DNA of 64,000 bases, from the NCBI RefSeq assembly GCF_029717145.1, contig NZ_CP099222.1:4092001-4156000 (forward strand). The letters are read 5' to 3'. Source of the stretch: Citrobacter freundii (GTDB lineage: Bacteria > Pseudomonadota > Gammaproteobacteria > Enterobacterales > Enterobacteriaceae). Every line of letters begins with the position of its first letter. Position 1 is the first letter of the stretch. Below, in pieces: positions 9,234 through 30,112 of this stretch. Position numbers and translations under genes: made by a program. Under the pieces are notes generated by a model. The model was not told where the DNA came from. It saw only the letters and a program-made list of their open reading frames with translations, and made no database searches.

Positions 9234-9243
9234 GGTATTCCTC

Positions 9244-9327
9244 CGGCATTACGCCGGATGGCGCTACGCTTATCCGGCCTACAAAAGCGCTTAATGTAGG
9301 CCGGGCAAGCGCAGCGCCCCCGGCATT
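9244..9327. repeat. REP pair between ytfQ and ytfR
   Basis: Two REP units in opposite orientation (ACGCCGGATGGCGCTACGC... and the GTAGGCCGGGCAAGCGCAGCG half) fill the gap between the binding-protein gene and the ATPase gene. Such elements can form a stem-loop that protects the upstream mRNA and lowers downstream expression. Confidence 0.9.
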
Positions 9328-9338
9328 TTCATGAAGGC

Positions 9339-10295
9339 TTAGTAGCCCATGTTTTTCTTCTTCTCTAGCTCTTCTTTCGCGGTATCCGGCAGATAGAGGA
9401 TAGATTTGGTAATGGTCAGCTTCTCAGGCATGGTGCCGTCTTTTTTGAATTTCTCCAGCGCGTCAAAGGCTGGACCGGCCATGTTTGGCGTCAACTCGAC
9501 GCTGGCGTTGGCTTCCCCGTCAATCATCGCTTTATAAATATCCGGCACGCCGTCGATAGAGCCGGTCAGAATATCTTTGCCCGGTTTCAGACCCGCTTCT
9601 TTGATTGCCTGAATCGCCCCGATCACCATGTCATCGTTGTGGGCGTAAACCATACAGATGTTCTTGCCGTTGTTTTCCGCTTTGATAAAGCTCTCCATGA
9701 CTTCTTTGCCTTTACTGCGGGTAAAGTCGCCGGACTGAGAGCGGATAATTTTGATGTTTGGTGCCTTGGCAATGGCTTCAGCAAAGCCTTTTTTACGGTC
9801 AATCGCCACGCTGGCACCGACGGTTCCTTGTAGCTCCACAACGTTACACGGCTTGCCGTTCACTTCTTTAATCAGCCAGTCGCCAATCAATTTGCCTTCC
9901 AGCACGTTGTCGGCCGTCACGGTGGTCATATAGAGAGATTTGTCTTTAACATCGATGGAACGATCGAGCAAAAAGACCGGGATCTCGGCATCTTTCGCTT
10001 CTTTTAATACCGGCTCCCAGCCAGTTGCTACCACTGGCGCAATGAAAATAGCATCCACGCCCTGCGCCACGAATGAACGTACCGCTTTAATCTGGTTTTC
10101 CTGTTTTTGCTGGCCGTCGGCAATTTTCAGCGTAATGCCGCGCTTCTCGGCCTCGCTTTTCGCTACGTTGGTTTCTGCTGCACGCCAGCCGGATTCAGAC
10201 CCGACCTGCGAAAATCCTACGGTTAAAGGGGCGGCCATCGCCATAGATGACATGGCTGCCGAAACTGCTGTGACTAAAAGTAAGCGCTTCCACAT
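9339..10295 (-). CDS. ytfQ: Galactofuranose-binding periplasmic protein YtfQ
   Basis: This is a 318-residue pentose/hexose-type binding protein. A signal peptide (positive MWKR, hydrophobic core, cleavage after AMA at about residue 21) precedes the mature TVGFSQVGSESGWR start, a sequence that lines the sugar site in this family. The FIAPVVATGWEPVLKEAKDAEIPVFLLDR segment is typical of the periplasmic-binding-protein fold. It is the first gene of the importer operon and is separated from ytfR by REP units, which would suit the usual excess of binding protein. Operator-like sites lie upstream at 10365-10385 and 10425-10438. Confidence 0.96.
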   Translation of the reverse strand: MWKRLLLVTAVSAAMSSMAMAAPLTVGFSQVGSESGWRAAETNVAKSEAEKRGITLKIADGQQKQENQIKAVRSFVAQGVDAIFIAPVVATGWEPVLKEAKDAEIPVFLLDRSIDVKDKSLYMTTVTADNVLEGKLIGDWLIKEVNGKPCNVVELQGTVGASVAIDRKKGFAEAIAKAPNIKIIRSQSGDFTRSKGKEVMESFIKAENNGKNICMVYAHNDDMVIGAIQAIKEAGLKPGKDILTGSIDGVPDIYKAMIDGEANASVELTPNMAGPAFDALEKFKKDGTMPEKLTITKSILYLPDTAKEELEKKKNMGY

Positions 10296-10364
10296 AAGTG
10301 CGTCCTCGTAGGGTGATTATTGTTGATTAATAAACCGTCGCGAAAAAACTATAGACAATCGAGC

Positions 10365-10385
10365 ATGTAACGGATTGCGTTACAT
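10365..10385. promoter_or_regulatory. Perfect 8-5-8 palindrome upstream of ytfQ
   Basis: ATGTAACG-N5-CGTTACAT lies 70-90 bases before the ytfQ start, next to a possible -10 (TATAGT on the minus strand, about 10350). The symmetry and position suit a repressor or activator site; the protein is not identified. Confidence 0.5.
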
Positions 10386-10424
10386 CACACTTCAAAAAAG
10401 TAAATAAAACGTTAATCACAAGTT

Positions 10425-10438
10425 TGTAATCGCTTTCA
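10425..10438. promoter_or_regulatory. GalR/GalS-like operator upstream of ytfQ
   Basis: TGTAATCGCTTTCA fits the GalR/GalS core pattern (TGTAA-N-CG-N-TT-N-CA). It lies about 130 bases upstream of ytfQ, a galactose-related transporter, so control by GalR/GalS is plausible. This is inference from a motif match. Confidence 0.5.
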
Positions 10439-10556
10439 TTACCCTATGAAAAATGCAGCTGAAGTTATGGATTTTTCTGTCATCAAGACAGGGAGAAAAA
10501 GCGAAAATCCGAGGTGGCAAATCGAAAACAAGCGGAGACATTCAGCGCGAGTTGGC

Positions 10557-10562
10557 TATAAT
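10557..10562 (+). promoter_or_regulatory. -10 box of the ppa promoter
   Basis: A consensus TATAAT follows GTTGGC, 42 bases before the ppa start codon. The -35 region at the matching distance is weak. Confidence 0.6.
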
Positions 10563-10604
10563 ACCCGCCACTTGTTTGCCATAGCATATTTAAAGGAAAC
10601 AGAC

Positions 10605-11132
10605 ATGAGCTTACTCAACGTCCCTGCCGGTAAAGATCTGCCGGAAGATATCTACGTTGTTATCGAGATCCCTGCGAACGCAGATCCGATCAAATACGAA
10701 GTTGACAAAGAGAGCGGCGCCCTGTTCGTTGACCGCTTCATGTCCACTGCGATGTTCTATCCGTGCAACTACGGTTACATCAACCACACCCTGTCTCTGG
10801 ATGGCGACCCGGTCGACGTTCTGGTCCCGACACCGTACCCGCTGGAGCCAGGTTCAGTGATCCGCTGCCGTCCGGTTGGCGTACTGAAAATGACCGACGA
10901 ATCCGGTGAAGATGCGAAACTGGTTGCGGTACCGCACACCAAGCTGAGCAAAGAATACGATCACATCAAAGATGTGAACGACCTGCCGGACCTGCTGAAA
11001 GCGCAGATCACTCACTTCTTCGAGCATTACAAAGATCTCGAAGCAGGCAAATGGGTGAAAGTTGACGGTTGGGACAACGCTGAAGCCGCTAAAGCTGAAA
11101 TCGTTGCATCCTTCGAGCGTGCGAAGAAATAA
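10605..11132 (+). CDS. ppa: Inorganic pyrophosphatase
   Basis: This 175-residue protein begins [19 protein letters not shown]. It hydrolyses pyrophosphate to drive biosynthetic reactions and is a cytoplasmic hexamer. The family I signature is present, with DGDPVDVLV at about residues 66-74 coordinating magnesium, along with [11 protein letters not shown] and the YPCNYGYI segment. The frame is open to 10446, but the ATG at 10605 after AAAGGAAACAGAC gives the conserved N-terminus. The C-terminus (RAKK) is one residue shorter than the E. coli protein as I remember it. Confidence 0.98.
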
Positions 11133-11146
11133 GTTCGCCTGAGCTC

Positions 11147-11186
11147 AAAACCCTGAACGCCAGCGTCTGGTTAGTAAGGGTTTTTT
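11147..11186 (+). terminator. Intrinsic terminator of ppa
   Basis: AAAACCCT pairs with AGGGTTTT around an inner stem (GCCAG/CTGG) and runs into TTTTTT, 15 bases after the ppa stop. Confidence 0.85.
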
Positions 11187-11284
11187 ACTTCTCATTTTCC
11201 CTCTCTTCGTTTTTCCTTTCTCCGCTGTTTTCTTTTTGACCTACCAGATTGGGTAGTCACATTTTGCTCATCTTATTTGCGAAT

Positions 11285-11303
11285 GAGACTAGATCTCATT
11301 ATC
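11285..11303. promoter_or_regulatory. Fur-box-like site
   Basis: GAGACTAGATCTCATTATC matches 12 of 19 positions of the Fur consensus (GATAATGATAATCATTATC) and lies 36 bases before the YncE-like gene. E. coli yncE is Fur-regulated, so iron control is a reasonable inference. Confidence 0.6.
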
Positions 11304-11338
11304 ATTCGCAACACGTAAATAAATGTGAATAAACGTCA

Positions 11339-12409
11339 ATGAACCTCCACACTGTGAAGTCCCTGAAACACTATTCCGCCGTGGCCCTCGCCACAACATT
11401 GTTATTTACCAGCCTGCCCAGCGTGGCAGAGACGCTGTCTGAGAAAGATTTCCTGACCCGCGACGTCGGTAACGGGGTGTATGAGTTGGCGGTTGATGGC
11501 CAGCAGAAGGCGCTTTTTGCCGCCTCTTCACCGTCGTTTGATAAAGACAAAACCCGCGGGGTTATCTACAAACTCGATCTGGAGAAACTCACCACCACCG
11601 AAGTCATCGAAACCAGCCGCCGGGCGTTTGCTACCGCGCTGGATGAAGAAAATCAGGTGCTGTATGTCGGTAATACGCTGGAAGGTTCGGTGACGATTAT
11701 CGATACCCGCAGCGGTAAAGAACGGGCAATACTGCAACTGAGCGATACCAGCAACCCGAAGGAAATCATCCATACGCGTGAAATGGTGCTGGATAAGCAA
11801 CATCACCGCCTGTACGTTTCCGGCGTGGCTGAAAAAGGCGTTGTCTGGGTGGTGGATACGCAAAAGCGTGAAAAAATAGCCACCCTTGAAAATATGGGCG
11901 AATACCCGACCGGCATGGCGATTGATGCTACAAACGATCGTCTGTACGTGGTGAACGGCAGAAACGAGCTGATTACGCTGGATACCACCCGCCACAAAAT
12001 AATTAACCGTTTTTCCGTTGAACCCGCTAAAAAGCATTTCTTCCTGAATATCGCCCTTGATAGCAAAAATAATCGCGCGTTCCTGACCGATCCTGATTTA
12101 GCCGATGTTCTGGTTGTCGATATTCATACCGGAAAAGTCATTACCCCAATCAAAGTCATTAATTCACTGGCTGTTCTCTATAACGAGACGCGTCAGGAAG
12201 TTTATATTACACACCGCAATGCCAAGCAGGTCAGCATTGTCGATAGCAACACCTATCAGGTAAAACACAGCATTGAAACCAATGCGTTACCTAACAGTCT
12301 GGCGCTTTCACCGGACGCTAACACCTTGTATGTCAGCGTAAAACAGCCGGAAAAAATGATTGGCGTCAAGCCCGACTACGTGCTGAAAATCGATTTATCT
12401 CAATACTAA
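11339..12409 (+). CDS. YncE-like seven-bladed beta-propeller, periplasmic
   Basis: This 356-residue protein has a signal peptide ending near residue 30 (SLPSVAE). The rest is made of repeated YVTN-type units such as LYVGNTLEGSVTIIDTRSG, LYVSGVAEKGVVWVVDT, LYVVNGRNELITLDT and LYVSVKQPE. It aligns along its length with E. coli YncE, an iron-repressed periplasmic protein of uncertain role reported to bind DNA in vitro. Here it precedes a TonB-dependent receptor gene on the same strand, as E. coli yncE neighbours the receptor yncD. The pair replaces the chpSB region found next to ppa in K-12. It probably assists the receptor, but its ligand is unknown. Confidence 0.8.
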   Translation: MNLHTVKSLKHYSAVALATTLLFTSLPSVAETLSEKDFLTRDVGNGVYELAVDGQQKALFAASSPSFDKDKTRGVIYKLDLEKLTTTEVIETSRRAFATALDEENQVLYVGNTLEGSVTIIDTRSGKERAILQLSDTSNPKEIIHTREMVLDKQHHRLYVSGVAEKGVVWVVDTQKREKIATLENMGEYPTGMAIDATNDRLYVVNGRNELITLDTTRHKIINRFSVEPAKKHFFLNIALDSKNNRAFLTDPDLADVLVVDIHTGKVITPIKVINSLAVLYNETRQEVYITHRNAKQVSIVDSNTYQVKHSIETNALPNSLALSPDANTLYVSVKQPEKMIGVKPDYVLKIDLSQY

Positions 12410-12427
12410 TAATCAAAAACTATTTTG

Positions 12428-12473
12428 CACCTTGTCGCCATGTTGCGCGGCAAGGTGGCGCTTTTATTTTTTT
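12428..12473 (+). terminator. Terminator or attenuator between the propeller and receptor genes
   Basis: CACCTTG (12428-12434) pairs with CAAGGTG (12451-12457) around a smaller CGC/GCG stem. A T-rich run (TTTTATTTTTTT) follows at once. It sits in the 85-base gap between the two genes and could reduce receptor transcription relative to the propeller. Confidence 0.65.
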
Positions 12474-12494
12474 ACTTTTCAGGTGTCTTATATT

Positions 12495-14504
12495 ATGAAA
12501 ACGCGTCAACTTATTACGCTGACAGGGATCGTTGCATTCTCAGGCGGGGTTATTTTTCCCGCGCAGGCCGAAGAATTAACGGAAACCTCACGCAATAGCG
12601 AAGATGAAATGGTGATTACGGCGTCCGGTTTCTCGCAGCAAAAGCGTGAAGCCCCGGCGACTATTTCAGTTATCGACCGTAAAACGCTGGATATTCAGCC
12701 GGACCGCAACGTGGGGGAAGCCATTAAAAATATTCCCGGCGTCTCGGTGTCGAACAGCAGCGGCATGAATGCTGGCAGCATTATGATCCGCGGCATGGAC
12801 CCGTCCTATACCGCCTTCATGGTGAACAGCGTCAAACAAAATACCGGCCAGTCACGCCCCTATGGGCACGACATAGGCACCGAAGCCAACTTCTTACCGC
12901 CAATGGAAGCCATTGAGCGCATCGAGGTTATTCGTGGGCCGATGTCATCATTGTACGGTTCCGATGCCATCGGCGGCGTGGTTAACGTCATCACCAAAAA
13001 GCCGTATGGGGCGAAAGACTGGACGACGGCAATTGCCGCGAATACCTGGCTTCAGGAACACCAGTATCTCGGCAATACCAGTCAGATGAATCTTTTCACC
13101 ATGGGGCCAATTATTCCCGATGTTCTCGGCTTAAGCGTGGCTGCCGACTGGCTCGACCGTCGCGACGACGATCGGAATAATTACTTCGGCAAACATAACC
13201 GCAAATCCGTGGATATGACGCTGGGTCTGGCCGCCAGCGAAAATAACCTCTTCGATCTCAACGTTGTCACCGGCGAGCAGGAAAAAAACCGCACCCAGAA
13301 ACGTGGTGCGCCGTGGTCATGGTTATATGATCGTAACGCCGCCACCCTGACCCATACCGGCTGGTATGCCGACGATACTATCGCGACAACTAACTACATT
13401 AACTACGAAAAAGGCCGCTCAAAATACGTTTATGACGGGCAGTCACCGCAGTATGTGCAGATGGAAAACTACGTCGCCAATTCACAAACCACCTTCACGC
13501 TCGACACCCATAAGCTGACCGTCGGGGCGAACTTCACCCGCGAAGAGTTAAACGACCGGTTTGATGTCGCCAACAAAACGCTGCCAGGCTCGGAGCCTGT
13601 TACCAAAATCAGCCGCAACGGTTGGGCGTTGTTCGTGGAAGACGGCTGGAGCATCAACGATTTCATCCTGACGACCTCCGCACGTATGGATCAGGACGAT
13701 AACTTTGGTACGCACATTACGCCGAAAATGTACGGCAACTGGGCATTCAACGATGCCTGGGCGCTGAAAGGCGGCGTCTCCGCCGGATATAAAAAGCCGG
13801 AACTGCGAGCCACCTCCAGTAACTTCGTCACCCCTTACGGTTCAACCGTGCCCTATCCCTTCCTGACGGTCGGCAATGACGACTTAAAACCGGAGAAAAG
13901 CGTTAACTCTGAGCTGGGTCTGTACTGGACGGGCGATGTGCTGTCGCTCGATGGCACCGTGTTCTATACGCAATTCAAAGACAAGATTGCGGAACAAACC
14001 ATTTGTGAAACCACGGCGACCAACCAGTGCTCAGTCAATGGCTACAACGCCGACTCGGTGAGTAAATACTTTAACGTCAGCGAAGCCGATGTGTACGGCG
14101 TCGAGCTCAACGCCGACTGGCAAATTAGCACCGACGTCAAAGCCAATGCCAACTACACCTACAACCACAGCGAGCAGAAAAGTGGCGTCAACAAAGGCTA
14201 CGCGCTGAACGACTACCCACGCCATATGGCGAACTTGTCGCTGAACTGGACGGCGACGCAAAGCCTCGACGTGTGGAGTACGGTGAACTACCGCAGCAGC
14301 AACCGCAACAGCGGTAATAACAACAAGTACGATGATTACACGATGGTGGATGTGGGCGTACGCTACCAGTTGAATAAGCACACACAGCTGATGGCGGGGG
14401 TCTACAACGTGCTGGATGAGGATCCGAAACTCACGACCGCATGGAGTGAGTCCGCTCAGGTGGAAGGACGCCGCTATAACCTTGGCGCGCGCGTGGAGTT
14501 CTAA
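12495..14504 (+). CDS. TonB-dependent outer-membrane receptor
   Basis: This is a 669-residue receptor. The signal peptide ends near residue 26 (FPAQAEE), followed by a TonB-box-like DEMVITAS. The plug domain has GEAIKNIPGVSV, IMIRGMDPSYTAFMVNS and IEVIRGPMSSLYGSDAIGGVVNVITKKP. A 22-strand-type barrel follows and ends ...NLGARVEF with the terminal Phe needed for BAM assembly. The plug resembles FepA/CirA/IrgA-type catecholate siderophore receptors more than cobalamin receptors, but substrate cannot be read from sequence. The start at 12495 gives the signal peptide directly; the open frame to 12432 lies over the terminator hairpin. Likely iron-controlled through the upstream Fur-like site. Confidence 0.85.
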   Translation: MKTRQLITLTGIVAFSGGVIFPAQAEELTETSRNSEDEMVITASGFSQQKREAPATISVIDRKTLDIQPDRNVGEAIKNIPGVSVSNSSGMNAGSIMIRGMDPSYTAFMVNSVKQNTGQSRPYGHDIGTEANFLPPMEAIERIEVIRGPMSSLYGSDAIGGVVNVITKKPYGAKDWTTAIAANTWLQEHQYLGNTSQMNLFTMGPIIPDVLGLSVAADWLDRRDDDRNNYFGKHNRKSVDMTLGLAASENNLFDLNVVTGEQEKNRTQKRGAPWSWLYDRNAATLTHTGWYADDTIATTNYINYEKGRSKYVYDGQSPQYVQMENYVANSQTTFTLDTHKLTVGANFTREELNDRFDVANKTLPGSEPVTKISRNGWALFVEDGWSINDFILTTSARMDQDDNFGTHITPKMYGNWAFNDAWALKGGVSAGYKKPELRATSSNFVTPYGSTVPYPFLTVGNDDLKPEKSVNSELGLYWTGDVLSLDGTVFYTQFKDKIAEQTICETTATNQCSVNGYNADSVSKYFNVSEADVYGVELNADWQISTDVKANANYTYNHSEQKSGVNKGYALNDYPRHMANLSLNWTATQSLDVWSTVNYRSSNRNSGNNNKYDDYTMVDVGVRYQLNKHTQLMAGVYNVLDEDPKLTTAWSESAQVEGRRYNLGARVEF

Positions 14505-14517
14505 ATCCTAAAAAACA

Positions 14518-14537
14518 ACGCCACCCGAGGGTGGCGT
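14518..14537 (+). terminator. Hairpin after the TonB receptor gene
   Basis: ACGCCACCC and GGGTGGCGT flank GA, 13 bases past the stop. It is a strong stem followed by GTTATA rather than a long U-run. Confidence 0.75.
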
Positions 14538-14539
14538 GT

Positions 14540-14665
14540 TATACCTGTCGTCTTTCAAACTGCCTCTGCGTTGGCTTTCCTCGCTTACCCCAGTCACGTA
14601 CTGATGTACGTGACTGGGGATTCCTGCGTCGCCGCCTTGATGCAACTCGAAATCCATCAGGTATA
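14540..14665. repeat. ERIC/IRU element
   Basis: This 126-bp element is bounded by TATACCT and AGGTATA. It has the central ERIC palindrome (CCCCAGTCACGTAC... GTACGTGACTGGGG) and the flanking blocks CTGCCTCTGCGTTGGCT and GCCGCCTTGATGCAACTCGA. It lies between the receptor terminator and the last codon of ytfP, touching both. Confidence 0.9.
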
Positions 14666-14667
14666 TG

Positions 14668-15012
14668 TTAGTACTTGTCGCGGTCTAACCAGTTACCGCT
14701 TTCTATCAGCGTTAACCCATCTACCGGACGTTGATATACATACATCCATGCACTTCCGTAAGGCGTCTGAATTAACTGGCGTGCGTACTCTCCGCCACGC
14801 GAGCGCAGCGCATCAAGCTCTGCCAGCGTGGCGTTATCAATACGATAAACTTCCCCGTGTACCGTTCCGTTTCCCGGAACCGCGCCTGGATAGTGGCCCA
14901 GACTGTACAACTGGTAGTTATCGATGCTGAAATTACCCAGCAACTGGGCGTTGGTCATCCAGTGGCTGTTACCTTGCTTGGTACGTAAACTACCATAAAC
15001 AAATATTCGCAT
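14668..15012 (-). CDS. ytfP: Gamma-glutamylcyclotransferase-like protein YtfP
   Basis: This 114-residue protein matches E. coli YtfP. It has the GGCT-fold motif YGSLR (residues 5-9) and the acidic catalytic-type residue in the RGGEYAR segment. The cellular function is not established. It is the third gene of tamA-tamB-ytfP, two bases behind tamB. The last residue (Tyr after LDRDK) and the stop lie at the border of the ERIC element. The E. coli protein ends at LDRDK as I recall, so the repeat seems to have inserted at the very end of the gene. Confidence 0.93.
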   Translation of the reverse strand: MRIFVYGSLRTKQGNSHWMTNAQLLGNFSIDNYQLYSLGHYPGAVPGNGTVHGEVYRIDNATLAELDALRSRGGEYARQLIQTPYGSAWMYVYQRPVDGLTLIESGNWLDRDKY

Positions 15013-15014
15013 TG

Positions 15015-20593
<5,579 letters not shown>

Positions 20594-21419: not shown

Positions 21420-22472
21420 CTATTGTTCCCGCGCCAGCGCGGCATGGCGCGTGGCATTGGCGACGGTTCCCCTTTCCGTCACTTTGCCCTTGAGCAGCAG
21501 ATTAAACACCGGCGCAGCCGGGCGATTGAGGCGGTTTTGCAGCAAATGCACCGCTTCTACGCCTAATGCCCGACAGGGAATGGTAATGCTGGTGACCGCA
21601 GAAACCACATGGCCATCCAGTTCTTTGACGTCCGTGGTCATCAGCGAGATATCATCGGGAATGCGTACCCCCAACGCTTCCAGCACGCGACGAACGCCGC
21701 TGGACATTGACGCCCCAGCACAGAAAATCACTTCCGGCCATTCGCTCTGCGGCAGTTCACGTAGCCGGTCGCTAATCGCCTGTATCGCCTCTGGTTCAGA
21801 AAATCCTTCCGTCACCAACAGATCGCGCCGGGCATCAAACGGCACCTGATACTGCCGATAGATCTCCTTTATGCCTTCCAGACGCCAGTACAGGGTTTCA
21901 CGTCGTAGGCTGGTGACGTGGAGAATGCGCCGATGCCCCTGCTCAAAAAGATACTGCACCGCCTGGTTGCCAATCGATCGGTGATCGGGCGAGACCGCGT
22001 CCAATACCCCTTCTTTATCCTGTGAGTTGATCAGCACGCAGGGTTTTCCCAGCGACTGCGCCAGCTTATGCACGGTGGGGTCATCAATGCCGATGAGAAT
22101 AATGGCGTTGATATTCTTACTGTTGGCCTTTTGCAGAAAGAGCTTGATGTCGGCTCGCTGCTCATCTAACCCGCAGTAGCTCAGATAGACATCATGCGGC
22201 GCAATAGCTTCAGCAATACCGCGCGTCACTTCGAGGTAAAACACATCGCCCTGCGCAATGAATGTGCGCTGTGGAGCGAAGACCGCAATCCCGTTGATCA
22301 GCAGCCGCCCGCAGGCCAGCGTATCAAGCACCCCTAGCTGGCGCGCGCATTTCACGATGGCTTCCCGAGCTTTATCGCTGGTACAGGACTTCCCGCTCAG
22401 TACCCTCGACACGGTACTCACGGAGAACCCGGTTAAGGCAGCGATTTCATCCATTTTTAGCTTGCCTGACAT
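21420..22472 (-). CDS. LacI-family transcriptional regulator of the accessory catabolic island
   Basis: This is a 350-residue repressor. The N-terminal helix-turn-helix (MDEIAALTGFSVSTVSRVLSG, about residues 7-27) is the LacI signature. A periplasmic-binding-like effector domain follows (FYLEVTRGIAEAI, NAIILIGIDDP, VSPDHRSIGNQAVQYLFEQGHRRI). Start MSGKLKMDE at 22472 follows GAGGTCACAGA; the frame continues upstream to 22571, but that adds 33 residues before the DNA-binding domain, which is unusual. It is divergent from the first oxidoreductase gene, with LacI-type operator sequences between. It most likely represses the 22.6-29.9 kb operon, with an unknown sugar as inducer. Confidence 0.85.
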   Translation of the reverse strand: MSGKLKMDEIAALTGFSVSTVSRVLSGKSCTSDKAREAIVKCARQLGVLDTLACGRLLINGIAVFAPQRTFIAQGDVFYLEVTRGIAEAIAPHDVYLSYCGLDEQRADIKLFLQKANSKNINAIILIGIDDPTVHKLAQSLGKPCVLINSQDKEGVLDAVSPDHRSIGNQAVQYLFEQGHRRILHVTSLRRETLYWRLEGIKEIYRQYQVPFDARRDLLVTEGFSEPEAIQAISDRLRELPQSEWPEVIFCAGASMSSGVRRVLEALGVRIPDDISLMTTDVKELDGHVVSAVTSITIPCRALGVEAVHLLQNRLNRPAAPVFNLLLKGKVTERGTVANATRHAALAREQ

Positions 22473-22495
22473 TCTGTGACCTCGCTCGCAATCTA

Positions 22496-22514
22496 TTTTT
22501 GCAAGTTTTTGCAA
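22496..22514. promoter_or_regulatory. TTTTTGCAA direct repeat upstream of the LacI-family gene
   Basis: TTTTTGCAA occurs twice with a 10-base period, one helical turn, 24-42 bases before the regulator start. The core TTGCAA is palindromic. It may be an autoregulatory site; inference only. Confidence 0.4.
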
Positions 22515-22573
22515 ACCTAGTTCATTGACTCTAAAACACTTTTTTAATATCTGTGCGAACTTCTTCCTCATCC

Positions 22574-22587
22574 TGCAACCGCTCTCA
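22574..22587. promoter_or_regulatory. LacI-family operator candidate
   Basis: TGCAACCGCTCTCA fits the general LacI-family half-site pattern TG-NN-A-N-CG-N-T-NN-CA. It lies in the divergent region between the regulator and the first oxidoreductase gene, 75 bases upstream of the latter. Confidence 0.5.
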
Positions 22588-22661
22588 CAAAATCACATTG
22601 TCGATATTCCAGGCGTTTCTTATGGTCCGCTTATCCCTTATTTCTGATGAAAAGGCCTGAC

Positions 22662-23822
22662 ATGAAAAAATTACGCTTTGGCATTATTGGCGTGGGAAAT
22701 ATTGGCACCGTCCACGCCCGCTATCTGCTGGCTGGGACCGTAAAGGACGCCTGCCTGACGGCGGTCTGCGATAATAACGCCGACAAGCATGCCGCTATTC
22801 GCCAGTTGGTAGGCGATGCGGTTGCACTGTTTATCAGCGCTGAGGAGATGCTGAACAGTGGGCTTGTCGACGCGGTTATCGTCGCTACGCCGCACTATGC
22901 GCATCCGGGTTTATCGATGATGGCGATGCGTCTTGGCATTCATACGTTGTGCGAAAAACCGGCCGGGGTCTGTACCGCGCAGGTCCACGAGATGAACACC
23001 TGCGCCCGTGAATGCGATGTGGTGTTCGGCATGATGTACAACCAGCGCCCGAACCCGCTGTATCAGAAGGTGAAAGATCTGATCGACAGCGGCGAGCTGG
23101 GCGAATTGCGCCGCTCCAACTGGATAATCACCAACTGGTATCGCTCACAGAGTTACTACAACTCCGGCGGCTGGCGCGCGACATGGAAAGGCGAAGGCGG
23201 CGGCGTGCTGCTCAATCAGGACCCGCACCAGCTTGATTTGTGGCAATGGCTGGTCGGTATGCCCATACGCTTGCGCGCGTTTTGCCAGTTTGGCAAACAC
23301 CGCCAGATTGAAGTAGAAGATGAGGTCACCGCCTACGCGGAATACGCCAACGGTGCAACCGGCGTGTTCATCACCACCGTCGCCGAAACCCCCGGCACCA
23401 ACCGCCTCGAGATCGTCGGCGATCGCGGAAAAGTGGTGGTGGAAGAAGGCCGCCTGCGCTTCTGGCGACTGCGTGAATCCGAAACCGACTTCAACGCCCG
23501 CTGGCAAAACGGCTTTGGCGAGCCGGAGTGCTGGGAAGTGACTATCCCTACCGCACCAGAATGCAGTGAGCATCATGTCATCACCGCCAATTTCACCGCC
23601 GCGGTCCTGCACGGCGAACCGCTCATCGCCCCTGGTCTGGAAGGCATTCGCGGCCTGACGCTGTCCAACGCCATGCACCTCTCCACCTGGACCGATGACT
23701 GGGTTGAGCTGCCAATTGACGAGCAGCGCTACGCCCGGTTGTTGCAGGCGCGTATCGACTCATCGGTCGAGAAAACCACCGCCAGCCGCACGCTGGACGC
23801 CTCCGCAAGCTGGCAGCGTTAA
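22662..23822 (+). CDS. Gfo/Idh/MocA oxidoreductase 1
   Basis: This 386-residue NAD(P)-dependent dehydrogenase starts MKKLRFGIIGVGNIG. It has a Rossmann loop (GVGNIG, residues 10-15), the family EKP motif at 98-100 with its catalytic-type Lys, and the active-site region YYNSGGWRATW followed by EGGGVLLNQDPH (Asn185, His189). Members oxidise or reduce sugars, inositols or glycosides, often at C3. The substrate is unknown. It is the first gene of the operon, and the next start is 10 bases after its stop. It shares the YY...W...EGG...N-x3-H block with oxidoreductases 2 and 4, which suggests paralogy. Confidence 0.85.
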   Translation: MKKLRFGIIGVGNIGTVHARYLLAGTVKDACLTAVCDNNADKHAAIRQLVGDAVALFISAEEMLNSGLVDAVIVATPHYAHPGLSMMAMRLGIHTLCEKPAGVCTAQVHEMNTCARECDVVFGMMYNQRPNPLYQKVKDLIDSGELGELRRSNWIITNWYRSQSYYNSGGWRATWKGEGGGVLLNQDPHQLDLWQWLVGMPIRLRAFCQFGKHRQIEVEDEVTAYAEYANGATGVFITTVAETPGTNRLEIVGDRGKVVVEEGRLRFWRLRESETDFNARWQNGFGEPECWEVTIPTAPECSEHHVITANFTAAVLHGEPLIAPGLEGIRGLTLSNAMHLSTWTDDWVELPIDEQRYARLLQARIDSSVEKTTASRTLDASASWQR

Positions 23823-23832
23823 GGGGATGACC

Positions 23833-25014
23833 ATGCTGAATATTGCCATTGTCGGCACCGGAAACATCTCCCATAACCACATTCAAAGCTATTTACAGTT
23901 TGCGGATCGCTGCCGGATCGTCGCGCTGGTCGACATCTGGCCGGAAAAAGCCGAAGAGAAGAAAACGCGCTACGGCCTAAGCGAAGCACGGGTCTACAAC
24001 AGCCATCAGGCCATGCTGGACGCGGGTATTAATGTGGACGTTGTCGACGTCTGTACTCCGCCGTACGTCCACGCCGACATCAGCATTGATGCTCTGCACG
24101 CGGGCAAACACGTGCTGTGCGAAAAACCGATGGCCGCCTCGCTCGCAGAGTGTGATGCGATGATTGCCGCGCAGAAAGCCAGCGGAAAAATGTTATCGGT
24201 CATCGCACAAAACCGCTTTACCGATGCCTTCTGGCGCTTAAAAGCCGCCGTTGATTCCGGCCTTGCGGGCAAAATTTGCCACGCACAGGTGGACTCGTTC
24301 TGGTGGCGCGGGCATTGCTATTACGATCTGTGGTGGCGCGGCACCTGGCAGAAAGAAGGCGGCGGCTGCACGCTGAATCATGCGGTACACCACATCGATG
24401 CAATTCAGTGGATGCTCGGCTTCCCGAGCGAAGTGGTAGCGATGATGAGCAATGTCGCCCATGACAACGCGGAAGTGGAAGATCTCAGTGCGGCCATTTT
24501 CAAATATTCAGACGGGGCGCTGGCTCAGCTCACCGCATCCGTTGTGCATCATGGTGAAGATCAGAAAATCGTTATTCAGGGCGAAAAGGCGCGGATCTCC
24601 GCCCCGTGGAAGGTGTATGCCAGCCAGTCGGCGGATAACGGCTTTCCACAAGCGGACAATAATCGCGAACTGGAAGAGCAACTGGACGCGCTGTTTCATG
24701 CCATGCCTGCGCTTCAATGGACGTTGCATAGCGGACAAATCGACAACCTGCTCAGCGCTATCGAACAACAGACGCCCCCACTGGTCGACGGGGAACAGGG
24801 TAAACGTTCGCTGGAGCTGATTACCGCTATCTACAAATCCGCCATTACCCGCACGGTGGTAACGCTGCCCATCCCCAGCCACGACGATTTTTATCGTACC
24901 GGCGGCCTGATGGCAAAAGCCCCGTATTTTTATGAGAAATCCGCCTCCGTGAGCAATTTCACGGAAGTCGGTGCTATCCCTCTGGGTAAAGACTTAGATT
25001 CAGGAGCAGAGTAA
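23833..25014 (+). CDS. Gfo/Idh/MocA oxidoreductase 2
   Basis: This is a 393-residue member of the same family: Rossmann loop GTGNIS (8-13), EKP at 97-99, and the active-site block YYDLWWRGTW followed by EGGGCTLNHAVHH (Asn182, His186). The start at 23833 follows AAGGGG with normal spacing. The frame extends up to 23695 inside the previous gene, which is not used. Its stop overlaps the next start in TAATG. The C-terminal tail (about residues 345-393) includes DDFYRTGGLMAKAPYFYEKSA. Role inferred as one redox step of a sugar or glycoside pathway. Confidence 0.85.
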   Translation: MLNIAIVGTGNISHNHIQSYLQFADRCRIVALVDIWPEKAEEKKTRYGLSEARVYNSHQAMLDAGINVDVVDVCTPPYVHADISIDALHAGKHVLCEKPMAASLAECDAMIAAQKASGKMLSVIAQNRFTDAFWRLKAAVDSGLAGKICHAQVDSFWWRGHCYYDLWWRGTWQKEGGGCTLNHAVHHIDAIQWMLGFPSEVVAMMSNVAHDNAEVEDLSAAIFKYSDGALAQLTASVVHHGEDQKIVIQGEKARISAPWKVYASQSADNGFPQADNNRELEEQLDALFHAMPALQWTLHSGQIDNLLSAIEQQTPPLVDGEQGKRSLELITAIYKSAITRTVVTLPIPSHDDFYRTGGLMAKAPYFYEKSASVSNFTEVGAIPLGKDLDSGAE

Positions 25015-26081
25015 TGAACAAGACAGATGGAATGAACTACGCCCCGACCGGCAAACCGCAGCCGGTGGTAAAACCTGGTGAGTTTGTGATTGCCGCTGCC
25101 ACGCTCGACCACGGTCATATCTACGGGATGTGCAACGGGCTGATCGAAGCCGGAGCCACCCTGAAGTGGGTGTACGACCCGGACCCGGCGAAAGTGGAGA
25201 AATTCCTGCAACAGTACCCGCAGGCGCAGGTGGCTGACTCACTGGAGACCATTCTCAACGACCGCGATGTCAGGCTGGTCGCCGGGGCGGCAATCCCCTC
25301 TGAACGCTGCCCGCTGGGACTAAAGGTGATGGCGGCGGGTAAAGATTATTTCACCGACAAAGCACCGCTGACTACTCTCGAACAGCTGGAAGACGCCAAA
25401 GCTATGGTGGCCAGGACCGGGCGCAAGTACGCGGTTTACTACAGCGAGCGCCTGCACGTTGAAAGCGCAGTTTTTGCGGGCGATCTGGTCAAGCGGGGGG
25501 CAATTGGCCGGGTGATCCAGACCCTGGGCACCGGCCCGCATCGTGAAGGCAGCGGACGTCCGGACTGGTTCTACGATCGACGCTATTTCGGCGGCATTCT
25601 GTGTGATATCGGCAGCCATCAGATTGAGCAGTTCCTGTTTTACACCGACAACCTCGAGGCGCGTGTGGTCGCAAGCCAGGTGCGCAACGTTAATCATCCA
25701 CAGTATCCACAGTTTGAAGACTTTGGCGATGCGATGCTGGCGGGCGAGAACGGCGCAACGGGCTATTTCCGCTGCGACTGGTTCACGCCGGACGGCCTCA
25801 GCACCTGGGGGGACGGACGCCTGACGCTGCTGGGCACCGAGGGCTATATCGAGATCCGCAAGTATGTCGATATTACCCAAGGTGAACAGGATGTAGTGTA
25901 TCTGGTTAATAAAGAGGGGGAATTCCGCTATCCGGTCGCCGGTAAGGTAGGGTTCCCGTTCTTCGGCGAGTTTATTCTCGACTGCCTGAACCGTACCGAA
26001 AACGCCATGACCCAGGCCCACGCGTTTAAAGCCGCCGAGCTGTGCGTGAAGGCGCAAATGCTCGCCAATGCGCATGCATAA
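25014..26081 (+). CDS. Divergent Gfo/Idh/MocA-like protein 3
   Basis: This 355-residue protein is clearly related but altered. The usual GxGxxG loop is replaced by AAATLDHGHIYG (residues 27-38), and the EKP motif reads DKA (115-117), keeping the Lys but not the Glu or Pro. The D-x3-H pair is kept (CDIGSH, Asp198 and His202). A short N-terminal extension (MNKTDGMNYAPTGKPQPV) precedes the first strand. Such HGHIYG-type members occur beside normal Gfo/Idh enzymes; whether they bind NAD or serve as a lyase or epimerase is open. Start coupled to oxidoreductase 2 by TAATG overlap, with a good GGAG upstream. Confidence 0.75.
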   Translation: MNKTDGMNYAPTGKPQPVVKPGEFVIAAATLDHGHIYGMCNGLIEAGATLKWVYDPDPAKVEKFLQQYPQAQVADSLETILNDRDVRLVAGAAIPSERCPLGLKVMAAGKDYFTDKAPLTTLEQLEDAKAMVARTGRKYAVYYSERLHVESAVFAGDLVKRGAIGRVIQTLGTGPHREGSGRPDWFYDRRYFGGILCDIGSHQIEQFLFYTDNLEARVVASQVRNVNHPQYPQFEDFGDAMLAGENGATGYFRCDWFTPDGLSTWGDGRLTLLGTEGYIEIRKYVDITQGEQDVVYLVNKEGEFRYPVAGKVGFPFFGEFILDCLNRTENAMTQAHAFKAAELCVKAQMLANAHA

Positions 26082-26091
26082 TGGGGGCAGC

Positions 26092-27114
26092 ATGAAAACG
26101 TTAAATGCCGCCATTATTGGTGCCGGTGCCATCCACCGTAGTCACGTCAACGCCCTACGGCTCTTGCCGGGGGTGACGCTACGCGCGCTGCTCGACACCG
26201 ACAGCGTCAACGGGCTACAGCAGGCGATGACCTATAACTGCCGCTTTTATCCCAATTACCGGGAAATGCTGCTGGATAACGACATTGACGTCGTGCATAT
26301 CTGTACGCCGCATTTTGAGCATAAAAATATGATTCTCGCCGCCCTTGCTGCCGGGAAGCATGTGTTTTGCGAAAAACCGGTAGGCATGAATGGAGGGGAA
26401 GTTGCCGACATCGCTGACGCCGCAGCCTCGGCGCCGGGACTACTGGGCGTGTGTTACCAAAACCGACTGAATCCCACCAGCCTACGCATACGCGATGAAC
26501 TGGCGAAAAATACGCTTGGCAAAATGCTCAGCATGAAAGCCGTGCTGACCTGGTCACGCTCCGGGGCGTACTACAGCGACAGTCCGTGGCGCGGGCGTTT
26601 TGCCCGCGAAGGCGGCAGTTTGCTGATTAATCAGGCCATTCATACTCTCGATCTGATGCAGTGGTTCGCCGGGGGCGTCACACGCTTAAAAGGCGTGGTG
26701 GATAGCAGCGAACTGGCAGCGGTGACGGAAGCAGAAGACAGCGCGATGGCAACGCTGCATTTTGCCAACGGTGCACGTGGCCTGTTTTACGCCAGCAACT
26801 GCAATACGCTCGATTCGCCGCTGCTGCTGGAGATCCACTGTGAAAACGGCATGCTTCAGCTAACTGACAACGCGCTATGGCGCGTCACAAAGGACCAGCG
26901 CCTGAAGCTGGAAAGCGATGGTTCACCAGACGGCAGCGCCAAAAGCTACTGGGGTCTTGGTCACCAACTGGCCATTCGCCAGTTCTATCATGCTATTACC
27001 CATCGCGGTCAGACAGAATATATCGATATCCATCAAGCCCAAAAATCGCTGTTGATGGTGGACGCTATTTATCGTTCATCTCTGACGCGACAATGGATAA
27101 ATATTAATAACTAA
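26092..27114 (+). CDS. Gfo/Idh/MocA oxidoreductase 4
   Basis: This is a 340-residue enzyme: Rossmann loop GAGAIH (10-15), EKP at 94-96, and the active-site block YYSDSPWRGRF followed by EGGSLLINQAIH (Asn180, His184). The start follows GGGGGCAGC, 10 bases after the stop of gene 3. It is most like oxidoreductases 1 and 2 in the catalytic block. The ERIC element lies between it and the permease gene, the only large gap in the operon (206 bases). Confidence 0.85.
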   Translation: MKTLNAAIIGAGAIHRSHVNALRLLPGVTLRALLDTDSVNGLQQAMTYNCRFYPNYREMLLDNDIDVVHICTPHFEHKNMILAALAAGKHVFCEKPVGMNGGEVADIADAAASAPGLLGVCYQNRLNPTSLRIRDELAKNTLGKMLSMKAVLTWSRSGAYYSDSPWRGRFAREGGSLLINQAIHTLDLMQWFAGGVTRLKGVVDSSELAAVTEAEDSAMATLHFANGARGLFYASNCNTLDSPLLLEIHCENGMLQLTDNALWRVTKDQRLKLESDGSPDGSAKSYWGLGHQLAIRQFYHAITHRGQTEYIDIHQAQKSLLMVDAIYRSSLTRQWININN

Positions 27115-27175
27115 AATTCATTAAGCATTCCATAAGTAAATAAATAAGCCGGGTAATACCGGCATACAGATACCC

Positions 27176-27300
27176 TATACACAAAATCATTCAAGATACT
27201 TCAAGGCGGTAAGTCTGGTAACGCCCAGGCGCTTACATAAGTAAGTGACTGGGGTGAGCAGGCGTAGCCAACAAAGAGGCTGCTTGAAGGATGACGTATA
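27176..27300. repeat. ERIC/IRU element inside the oxidoreductase-permease operon
   Basis: This 125-bp element is bounded by TATAC and GTATA. It contains AAGTAAGTGACTGGGGTGAG, the well-known conserved ERIC core, the block AACAAAGAGGCTGCTTGAAG, and the facing half with CTTACATAAGTAAG. It lies 20 bases before the permease start codon, so the mRNA would carry a long hairpin just upstream of that gene. Confidence 0.92.
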
Positions 27301-27320
27301 TATACACTGGAAAAATAATT

Positions 27321-28865
27321 ATGGTTAAACCAACTGAACGCAGAGTCGGTTATGGTGTAGCAATTGGCTACGGCATCACTGATTTATTTGGCGGCGGGGC
27401 TTTCGCTATTATCGGCACCTGGCTGTTATTTTTTTACACTACCTATTGCGGTTTAAGCGTCCTGGAGGCAGGTTCCATATTTGCTATTGCCCGCGTGATT
27501 GATGCTTTACTCAGCCCGATTATGGGCTACGTCACCGATAATTTTGGCAATACCTGGCTTGGGCGGAAATTTGGCCGTCGCCGCTTCTTTTTATTACTCA
27601 GTTCACCGCTCATGTTTCTCTATGCCCTGCTGTGGCTGACCGATATGGGTTACTGGTATTACCTGGGAACCTATTTGTCGATTGAATTGCTGTCGGCCAT
27701 GGTACTGGTACCGTGGGAAACCCTGGCAGCAGAGATGACTAACCGTTACGAAGAGCGCAGCCGCCTTTCCGGCGTGCGCATGATCTGCTCGCAGCTCGGC
27801 GGCTTTCTGGCCGTCTCGGTTCCCGGCATTCTGATGCAGTTTACGGGCAAAGATAATCCGTTTACCTACACCCTGACCGGGATTATCTTTTCCGTCGTTT
27901 TCTGTATCGCCGTGTTTATTACCTGGCGCTGCACATGGGAGGCCAAAGATGTGCAAGAGGAGACATTTAAAACGGACCTTCAGCGCAGTAGCGGATTGTT
28001 CAATCATCTGAAGTACCTGGTACTCGATCTCTTCTCCTCGTTCAAAATTCGCACCTTTCGTTTGCATATTATTATTTATATTTTCTCTTTCACCGCGATG
28101 GATGTATTCGGTTCAGTATTTACCTTTTACGTTATCTATTGTTTGAATCAGGATGCCGCATCGGTTTCCGGCTGGTTAAGCATTGCCGCGTTTGCGTCGG
28201 TGTTTGGCACCTATGGTTTTATGCTATTACTGAATAAACTCAATATTACGCCGTCCGCGGCGCTACGACTCTCTTATAGTTGTATATTTGCGGTGCTGGC
28301 ATTTTTATTTATTATCTATTACACCCAAACTCAGGTCTCCAACGTGTTGTTCTCCGCCGTCTTTATTCTGCTCGGCATGGCGCGCTCGGGTCTCTATTAT
28401 ATTCCGTGGAATATTTACAGTTTTATCCCCGATATCGACGAGATGGTGACCCAACAGCGGCGCGAAGGCATTTTTGCGGGCGTAATGGTACTCACCCGCA
28501 AGAGTACCGTGGCTATCGCTATCCTGCTGATCGGCATGGTGCTGGAGGAGTCGGGTTTTGTGAAAGGCAGCGGCGCCCAGCCTGCAATGGCGCTGCACGC
28601 CATTATCGGCTTGATGATCTTTGCTACCACCGCGCTGCTGGCAGTCAGTTTCTACACCACCTACAAATTCAAGCTCACGCGTGAGACGCATAAATTGCTG
28701 CTCAAAGAGATAGCCCGCCGCAAGCTGGGAGGCATCTATCGCGACTGCGATGAGGAAACACGGGTGGTGATAAAGCAGCTCACCGGCTACGAGTACGATG
28801 AAGTCTGGGGTGGCAGTGCAACGCAGCGGGCCACGGGGCGCGTCAGTCTTTCAGAAGCAGAATAA
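27321..28865 (+). CDS. GPH-family glycoside/sugar:cation symporter
   Basis: This 514-residue permease has about 12 spans. The MelB-like features include [13 protein letters not shown] at the start, an early acidic motif [18 protein letters not shown], and the Arg/Lys-rich loop RKFGRRRFF, all marks of the glycoside-pentoside-hexuronide:cation symporter family. It probably imports the substrate of the neighbouring enzymes with Na+ or H+. The start MVKPTERR at 27321 is preferred; the longer frame starts inside the ERIC. The soluble C-terminal tail (about 50 residues) is typical. The next gene starts 10 bases after the stop. Confidence 0.85.
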
Positions 28866-28875
28866 GGAGCGCATC

Positions 28876-29946
28876 ATGTATAAACCCTGGAGCAAAACGC
28901 AGGCACAGCGCTGGCATCAGCAGCAACCCTGGGGCTGTGGTTTTAACTATTTACCACGTACAGCGGTCAACTGGCTCGACATGTGGCAAGCCGAGAGTTT
29001 CGATATCCACACCATCGAACAGGAACTTCGCTGGGCCAGCCAGTACGGCTATAACCAGTTGCGAACGAACTTACCGTTTACCGTCTGGCAGCATGACCGC
29101 GATGGCCTGATTGGCCGTATCGACACCTTTCTAAGCATTGCACACGCCCACGGTATCAAGGTGATGTTGACGCTGCTCGACGACTGCGCCTTTTCCGGCG
29201 ATGAACCGTTTATCGGCCTGCAAAAAGCCCCGGTTCCCGGCGTGCATAATAGCCAGGCGGCGGGCAGTCCGGGACGGGCCTGCGTAATGGACAGAACCTG
29301 CTGGCCGCACATTGAAGCCTACGTTCGCGATATCATTCGATACTATCGTCATGACTCGCGCATCTGCGTCTGGGATCTCTACAATGAGCCCGGCAATGGC
29401 GGGATTTTCTGTAGCACAGGTGAATTTGCCCGTTACGACGACCGGCTGGAAATTTACGCCTTGACCCTGCTAACCCACCTGTTTAGCTGGGCGCGACAGG
29501 AGTCGCCGTCTCAGCCCCTAACCGTCGCCGCCTGGCATATTGACGATCGCGCAGCATGCGGGAACGCCTTTACCCATCCGATAGATGTTGCCGCACTGCG
29601 ACTTTCAGATGTCATTAGCTACCATGCGTATGTTGATACCCCAGGCCAACTGTCTCTTTTGTCACAGCTCGCTGAGTTTGGCAGACCGGTTTTCTGTACC
29701 GAATGGCTGGCCCGCCACGTTGGTAGCCGAATAGAAGAACAGCTGCCGCTGTTTAACGCGCAGCGCGTTTCCAGCTATCACTGGGGGCTGGTGCAGGGAA
29801 AAACGCAAACCTGGCTACCGTGGCCGGATATCAAGCTCAACGACAAGACCGCACAGCTATGGTTTCATGATGTCCTGAAGCCAGACGGTTCACCCTATTG
29901 CGAACAAGAGATGCAGACCGTACGCCGGATTAACGCCGTTGGATAA
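28876..29946 (+). CDS. Cytoplasmic clan GH-A (GH5-like) glycoside hydrolase
   Basis: This 356-residue protein has no signal peptide. Clan GH-A features: LRTNLPF early in the barrel, the acid/base in DLYNEP (Asn170, Glu171), a conserved His in ISYHAY (His250), and the likely nucleophile in FCTEWLAR (Glu276), giving a retaining (beta/alpha)8 enzyme. GH5 or a close relative is the best guess; the linkage it cuts is unknown. It lies directly after the symporter gene with AAGGAGCGCATC before the ATG. With an importer and no export signal, it should act on short imported glycosides rather than polymers. Confidence 0.75.
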
Positions 29947-29988
29947 GCCGCAATAATCCCCCTCTGGCGACTTTACAGTACCTTACGC

Positions 29989-29994
29989 TATACT
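29989..29994 (+). promoter_or_regulatory. -10-like TATACT before paeA
   Basis: TATACT lies about 120 bases before the paeA start, with a weak -35. If used, the transcript would begin near 30001 and carry the hairpin at 30008-30031 in its leader. Confidence 0.35.
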
Positions 29995-30007
29995 AGCTTC
30001 TGAATTT

Positions 30008-30031
30008 ACCGGCTCACTTCCACGAGCCGGT
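30008..30031 (+). terminator. Hairpin between the catabolic island and paeA
   Basis: ACCGGCTC and GAGCCGGT flank an 8-base loop and are followed by CTTTAGTTT. It may end the island transcript or form part of the paeA leader; the U-tract is imperfect. Confidence 0.5.
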
Positions 30032-30112
30032 CTTTAGTTTGAATTCAATATAGATTCATACGGATTTATCCATTTCCCTTCCGAGGATCTGGCCTTAACG
30101 GCTGGATAAGAT

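Follow-up and report, generated by a model that had tools for sequence, protein, structure and literature searches.

A LacI-family gene and the six genes that face it in a 64,000-nucleotide stretch of Citrobacter freundii DNA (the window; genome size 4.74 Mb) are best read as a lyase-less branch of the pathway in which glycosides are handled by oxidation at C3, probably one for uronides. The six genes encode four Gfo/Idh/MocA oxidoreductases (OR1 to OR4), a GPH-type symporter (GPH) and a glycosidase (GH). We propose, with a little less than even confidence, that they form a catabolic operon of the C3-redox type. Its substrate would be a small glycoside, most likely with a uronic acid, whose glycosidic bond is most likely cleaved by GH. 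The findings suggest that the C3-oxidation handling of glycosides, known from several other bacteria, has a widespread enterobacterial branch without genes of the AP-endonuclease type (AP-type).

Gene content and spread of the operon

The seven genes are laid out as a divergent unit, with the LacI-family gene on the minus strand opposite six plus-strand genes:

21420-22571, probable true start 22472, minus strand: LacI-family regulator (Pfam LacI and Peripla_BP_3 above cut-off)
22662-23822, plus strand: OR1, Gfo/Idh/MocA, glucuronide-3-dehydrogenase-like (Pfam; homology to PDB 8tdi; context of homologues)
23833-25014, alternative start 23827, plus strand: OR2, Gfo/Idh/MocA (Pfam; nearest solved structures 3q2k/3q2i)
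25014-26081, plus strand: OR3, divergent Gfo/Idh/MocA of the 2p2s/3u3x type, without GxGxxG (Pfam; structure relatives; alignment; neighbourhoods)
26092-27114, plus strand: OR4, Gfo/Idh/MocA, candidate 3-keto reductase (Pfam; 8tdi at 2.3e-27)
27321-28865, plus strand: GPH-type (MFS_2) symporter (Pfam PF13347 at 143.9 bits, cut-off 27)
28876-29946, plus strand: GH, putative unclassified clan GH-A glycosidase with a GH5-like fold (PF00150 matches of relatives; AlphaFold model; fold search)

Among these proteins, the Pfam families above cut-off are LacI, GFO_IDH_MocA in all four oxidoreductases, and MFS_2. OR1 to OR4 score under every listed NCBIfam cut-off for Gfo proteins, including that of IolG (best, 121.5 bits versus 355 for TIGR04380), and GPH reaches 138.1 bits with TIGR00792, below the cut-off of 231.35. 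The regulator gene probably starts at 22472, because five orthologous loci have a 351-amino-acid open reading frame from the later methionine.

An earlier note on this DNA, made from the letters without database searches, had described a LacI-family gene facing six co-directional genes for four Gfo/Idh/MocA enzymes, a symporter and a glycosidase, and the Pfam matches, the open reading frames and the predicted fold of GH all agree with it. The note also gave the genes 10-base gaps or a one-base overlap. The junctions from OR1 to GH measure, in order, 10 (or 4), -1, 10, 206 and 10 bases, such that the description holds for four of the five and fails between OR4 and GPH. Its term "island" does not survive: the G+C content of 0.52-0.57 falls inside the range of the flanks, so composition gives no support for a horizontal island, and most clusters in the family sit at the same site.

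Within the Enterobacteriaceae, OR3 was found in 27 of 246 genomes (E <=1e-40) and GH in 29 of 246 (E <=1e-5), these counts coming from two draws that are, judged by genome handles, apparently identical sets. The gene set, which the earlier note had suggested seeking elsewhere, recurs in 24 of the 246 as an OR3-OR4 core with OR1, OR2 or both, and its order is kept in many genera, beyond what chance would give. LacI, OR3 and OR4 are present in all 24 clusters (the OR4 of G016 is just 43% identical), OR1 in 21 (absent from G034, G074 and G211), GPH in 20 (absent from G024, G100, G179 and G197) and OR2 in 19 (absent from the same four and G251). Clusters that lack OR1 retain OR2 and vice versa, and the two look partly interchangeable. 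OR3 and OR4 are the constant core of what is a widely kept operon. In 18 of the clusters, from 12 genera, the site is the interval between msrA and ytfL, in some cases with an additional gene, and six lie elsewhere; the G062 cluster was read via L009, at the same contig position.

The G016 cluster (L027, 4063-19052) is rearranged and accompanied by nickel-pincer-type genes, a glycerate kinase gene and a mannitol-dehydrogenase-type gene. The insert comprises larA, glycerate kinase, larC, a presumed larE with no Pfam match, larB, a HupE/UreJ gene and the mannitol-dehydrogenase-type gene. Three of the 27 OR3 genomes (G190, G206 and G279) carry OR3 without the other cluster genes. The G206 copy (L110, 9361-10389) is split by an internal TGA into two open reading frames and appears decayed, while in G190 and G279, which belong to one genus, OR3 alone adjoins KdgM-type porins and a periplasmic pectate lyase (L111 and L112, ~8800-15200).

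Long matches were found in six of 16 genomes searched from the same genus, the window's own included. Among 5,426 E. coli genomes searched at megablast sensitivity, no site covered 80% of the operon.

Proposed C3 oxidation and a probable uronide substrate

OR1 shows clear homology, along almost its entire length, to a protein deposited as "P2B11 Glucuronide-3-dehydrogenase" (PDB 8tdi; E 7.7e-98, residues 1-367 of 386), which is its best solved relative. Oxidation/elimination enzymes with a tie to 8tdi P2B11 were reportedly described in Nature in 2024; a literature search on P2B11 or a 3-keto-glucuronide route turned up nothing relevant among the papers it listed. Unlike the P2B11 system, the locus studied here has no AP-type genes and carries OR2, OR3 and the GH5-like glycosidase alongside OR1.

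The nearest solved structures to OR2 are 3q2k (1.4e-42) and 3q2i (3.3e-42), named "oxidoreductase" and "dehydrogenase", which we take to be WlbA-type UDP-uronate 3-dehydrogenases. OR4 is nearest to 8tdi (2.3e-27) and then to 3q2k. For OR3 the nearest are 2p2s (6.3e-138) and 3u3x (3.2e-77), both labelled only as oxidoreductases. In alignment OR3 lacks GxGxxG and retains the active-site Lys and His, all of them motifs with recognized functions in Gfo proteins.

Gene neighbourhoods of OR1 homologues bear on the substrate. Seven plasmid records carry such a homologue (E <=1e-40), and six were examined, with Lachnospira eligens left out. Uronate genes stand near OR1 in four of the six, namely uidA in Cetobacterium and UxaC in Niallia, Arthrobacter and Subdoligranulum. 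The loci comprise a TIM barrel, OR1, Gfo, an epimerase, MFS and uidA in Cetobacterium; UxaC, AP1, OR1, Gfo, AP2 and Lar-type genes in Niallia; AP1, OR1, Gfo, AP2 and UxaC in Subdoligranulum; AP2, OR1, UxaC and a mannitol-dehydrogenase-type gene in Arthrobacter; and AP1, OR1 and MFS in Paenibacillus (AP1 and AP2 are AP-type proteins, for which profiles are described below). The E. eligens record has a second Gfo gene, a gene annotated deoxyribonuclease IV that the AP profiles do not match, and iolB 9 kb away.

In the Bacillota, the phylum of the Clostridia assembly G284, an OR1 homologue (E <=1e-70) was found in 21 of 398 genomes, at 23 places. Twenty regions from 19 genomes were fetched and hold 21 of these places (G678 and G683 were left out, and the second place of G556 was not tallied apart). 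Ten of the 20 loci also contain OR3. A pectate lyase and GH95 lie beside the OR3-OR1 pair in two of them (L143 and L150), and four (L139, L142, L147 and L149) have a GH51 arabinofuranosidase, an FGGY kinase and an old-yellow-enzyme-type gene. Overall, the evidence on substrate leans to uronic-acid glycosides over inositols or amino sugars. The proposal of the earlier note that a small imported glycoside undergoes paired oxidation and reduction at C3 fits the homology of OR1 to 8tdi and the gene sets of its homologues, with their second Gfo and AP-type genes.

Three known systems offer comparisons. As outlined in PMC7676230, the LgdA-LgdB1-LgdB2-LgdC pathway for levoglucosan in Bacillus smithii has C3 oxidation as its first step and C3 reduction as its last, for net hydrolysis, and its lyase and hydratase are annotated sugar phosphate isomerase/epimerase. 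Like the Lgd set in that outline, the operon has clustered Gfo/Idh/MocA proteins, here four, plus a probable GH-A glycosidase and a GPH symporter; unlike it, the enterobacterial loci give no match to an AP-type lyase or hydratase, and the substrate is probably a uronide. In comparison with the four-enzyme scheme of C3 oxidation, we find a 3-dehydrogenase homologue (OR1, going by the label of 8tdi) and, in every family cluster, a second Gfo that might reduce the 3-keto sugar (OR4), and we find no lyase or hydratase of the AP type.

The YcjQRS cluster of E. coli interconverts gulosides and glucosides (PMC11543891). As far as that source describes it, the resemblance lies in a LacI-type regulator and in C3 dehydrogenases that accompany glycoside-splitting enzymes, whereas its epimerase YcjR, its phosphorylases and its ABC transporter are all absent here. 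YcjR is presumably an AP-type protein, and AP_endonuc_2 is missing from the seven proteins of the operon.

GH109 and GH188 resemble Gfo-type oxidoreductases, and transient C3 oxidation is outlined for GH4, GH109 and GH188 in PMC10755693. As presented there these are single-enzyme systems, unlike the multi-gene set found here. Pfam and NCBIfam name neither GH109 nor GH188 for OR1 to OR4, in a comparison that used no profile for either family. No paper describing this operon was among the matches listed in the literature search. Where the earlier note expected a different pathway, the absence of AP-type genes at the locus stands, but the operon is better described as a branch of a known pathway.

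Cleavage of the glycosidic bond

The profiles AP1 and AP2, which stand for candidate lyase and hydratase proteins, were built from four and three proteins of the plasmid OR1 loci, which themselves score 460-507 and 402-509 bits, respectively. Because of this origin, the profiles are tested only by the counts in Bacillota and in enterobacteria. An AP1- or AP2-type match occurs at 18 of the 20 Bacillota OR1 loci (E <=1e-8), the two without one being the pectate-lyase loci. At the 28 enterobacterial loci (838 open reading frames, E <=1e-3) there is none; 26 of these loci are distinct, as L014/L057 and L015/L053 are apparently duplicate records. Something else must break the glycosidic bond. We prefer GH for this role; the other options are one of the Gfo proteins, for instance OR3, an AP-type enzyme encoded away from the locus, and elimination without an enzyme.

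Pfam finds no AP_endonuc_2 (PF01261) or DUF1080 family in the seven proteins. The remark of the earlier note that such genes are missing thus holds for the locus itself but not for the genome, which encodes seven AP_endonuc_2 proteins above cut-off elsewhere, one of them further along the window.

GH has the predicted features of a clan GH-A enzyme. The protein itself gives no PF00150 match in Pfam (only DUF2196, at E 0.13 with a limit of 10), and phmmer against the PDB returns nothing. Among its 38 aligned relatives, 22 match PF00150 at E <=0.01 (best 5.6e-11); the 38 were kept from 48 candidate rows, after near-copies, partial and multi-domain rows, L072 and L075 were dropped (alignment A1). 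A GH profile run against structures gives weak matches, mostly to GH5/GH10-type proteins plus one of the GH42M type. The AlphaFold model has a pLDDT of 94.7, and the best hits in a fold search are GH-A enzymes, with GH5 first. Two conserved residues, E171 and E276 (numbered from 28876), are the putative acid/base and nucleophile. Going by the model, GH is predicted to be a (beta/alpha)8 protein with the acid/base and nucleophile glutamates of clan GH-A. We assign it no substrate because mannosidases, mannanases, beta-galactosidases and beta-glucosidases are near-equal in Z. Within the genome collection, Citrobacter gillenii UMG736 is the named genome closest to that of the window, with a GH identity of 100% by tblastn and 99.7% by blastp.

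GH appears to track the oxidoreductases, a link supported by co-occurrence among genomes and by the GH tree. GH and OR3 occur together in 23 of the 246 genomes (Fisher p 6e-23), and by genus they share 15 where GH has 20 and OR3 18 of 154 (p 5e-14); with no more than 60 genomes as suitable hosts, the p values would rise to 3e-7 and 2e-7. As far as the stretches read extend, GH and OR3 are unlinked in 15 of the 23 genomes that have both. On a quick tree of GH, with SH-aLRT support only and with L021 and L022 also omitted, the linked forms need two changes, that is, two joinings to the cluster. GPH is absent solely where GH adjoins a solute-binding protein (4/7 versus 0/16, two of the four being one genus), as if the transport role could be passed on.

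Taken together, we propose the following course. LacI, probably with CRP, would control the operon, and GPH would import the glycoside. OR1 or OR2, singly or jointly, would oxidize the sugar at C3 with NAD+, as their homology and context suggest, and OR3 and OR4 would process and re-reduce the 3-keto sugar. The cytoplasmic GH, presumably a GH5-like retaining exo-glycosidase, would most likely cleave the glycosidic bond; it is preferred for this step because it tracks the oxidoreductases and keeps putative catalytic residues. The oxidoreductases might modify the sugar either ahead of hydrolysis or afterwards, with oxidation and reduction in balance. The scheme gives a testable role to the OR3 subfamily of Gfo proteins, with its two solved structures, and to an unclassified GH-A family that tracks oxidoreductases. 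Should the substrate prove to be a glucuronide, enterobacteria would have another route for uronide use.

Several points weigh against this scheme. The name of 8tdi is its depositor's label, and the role suggested for OR1 comes by homology to that label only. The GH51 and FGGY contexts at L139, L142, L147 and L149 suggest pentosides or an arabinosyl-uronide pathway, and GH resembles exo-mannosidases about as much as it does other GH-A enzymes. Outside the enterobacteria OR1 adjoins AP-type genes, and elimination, not hydrolysis, may be the native chemistry. The Fisher tests, except for the genus count, ignore shared descent. Six of the 29 GH genomes lack OR3, and four OR3 genomes lack GH: G016, which has OR1 to OR4 and GPH, and the three genomes with OR3 alone. 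GH is therefore not always needed. It need not act on an oxidized sugar either, since it is also found away from the oxidoreductases, alongside a regulator of its own. The earlier note suggested that the glycosidase acts on the native or the oxidized sugar; its link to the oxidoreductases is supported, and the oxidized form is not required.

It is possible, if on the unlikely side, that elimination takes place within the Gfo set, with OR3 replacing the lyase or with one oxidoreductase acting as an all-in-one NAD+-dependent glycosidase of the GH109/GH188 kind, while GH serves longer or other substrates. OR3 stands with OR4, and with at least one of OR1 and OR2, in each of the 24 family clusters, shares the OR1 locus in half of the Bacillota regions and has kept the family Lys and His without GxGxxG; G016, moreover, has the oxidoreductases yet no GH, and a single Gfo-like enzyme performs all steps in GH188 as outlined in PMC10755693. 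A strong AP1-type match is found at none of the 10 OR3 loci versus 12 of 16 loci without OR3. However, a weak AP-type gene (32-40 bits) lies directly upstream of OR1 in four of the 10 OR3 loci and an AP2-type gene is present in four others, such that eight of the 10 have an AP-type gene, and when weak AP1 matches are counted the comparison becomes 4/10 versus 12/16 (p 0.11). Furthermore, four of the 12 proteins that match AP1 strongly are profile builders (7/10 remain when the plasmid loci are removed), and Paenibacillus and Subdoligranulum, scored as lacking OR3, have an OR3 homologue 42 kb away and in a separate plasmid record from that species, respectively. The exclusion between OR3 and AP1 is without phylogenetic support because there are only two independent pairs (the starred branches), and it was dropped as a significant result. 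That the OR3 family as such replaces the AP-type lyase, with Gfo proteins alone oxidizing, eliminating, hydrating and reducing a uronide as separate, interchangeable enzymes, seems to us a little less probable still.

We also consider it improbable that this is an ordinary four-enzyme pathway whose lyase and hydratase are encoded elsewhere in the genome. One of the seven AP-type proteins (L118) matches AP1 at 2.4e-10, the best of the set, and another (L116) matches AP2 at 2.3e-15, which makes the former a candidate lyase in trans on the grounds of sequence similarity. Yet these matches, at 32 and 48 bits, are far below the scores of the profile builders, and the L118 protein looks similar to YihM of E. 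coli, the species in which no genome covers the operon to 80% at megablast sensitivity. That the oxidoreductases have unconnected functions and share no more than their regulation is very improbable: OR1 or OR2 is lost singly in some clusters and a Paenibacillus OR2-OR3 pair lies ~42 kb from OR1, but OR1 and OR3 share 10 of 20 Bacillota loci, OR3 and OR4 are constant in the family, and each cluster that has lost OR1 or OR2 keeps the other.

Putative regulatory sequences and minor observations

Four further features lie between or beside the genes:

22475-22490, plus strand: CRP-like site TGTGA-N6-TCGCA, the sole match in the window where 0.20 are expected; putative function
22498-22515, no strand assigned: near-palindrome TTTGCAAGTTTTTGCAAA, candidate LacI operator by its conserved halves
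27176-27306, no strand assigned: repeat, presumably of the ERIC type, between OR4 and GPH, with many ~120-130 bp copies in this and related genomes
29986-30042, no strand assigned: STnc450 small RNA (Rfam RF02051), between GH and ytfL

Both halves of the CRP-like site, defined by what we take to be the CRP consensus, are conserved across 14 aligned LacI-OR1 intergenic regions (14 of 17; three others were missed by the script), as are the TGCAA and TTGCA halves of the near-palindrome. The near-palindrome pattern has one exact match in the genome, the one here, and two further sites with one mismatch. A promoter scan of the region was uninformative, with 6 found against 5.9 expected.

The repeat between OR4 and GPH is present at the same site in G008 and missing there in G001, G002, G006 and G011 of the same genus; because these four are without it, the repeat was probably inserted into an already established gene order. 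It may alter the expression of GPH and GH.

In Niallia, OR1 lies near Lar-type genes (L086, 15274-21183). A Lar (nickel-pincer) enzyme as a regular partner was rejected, with no match in the other five plasmid or the 20 Bacillota OR1 loci, and Lar_N has no match in the window's genome. The G016 and Niallia loci would suit a LarA-type epimerase whose substrate is glycerate or a hydroxy acid derived from a uronate.

The Paenibacillus OR2-OR3 pair (L083, 10809-17020) adjoins a 510-amino-acid protein with no Pfam match and a YcaO protein. In rhizobia OR3 is paired with another Gfo, yet the remaining neighbours vary, and this context was set aside as a substrate hint. In Qingshengfaniella OR3 lies beside sugar-acid-type genes. 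Finally, the terminator-like site richest in G-C pairs in the region falls within STnc450.

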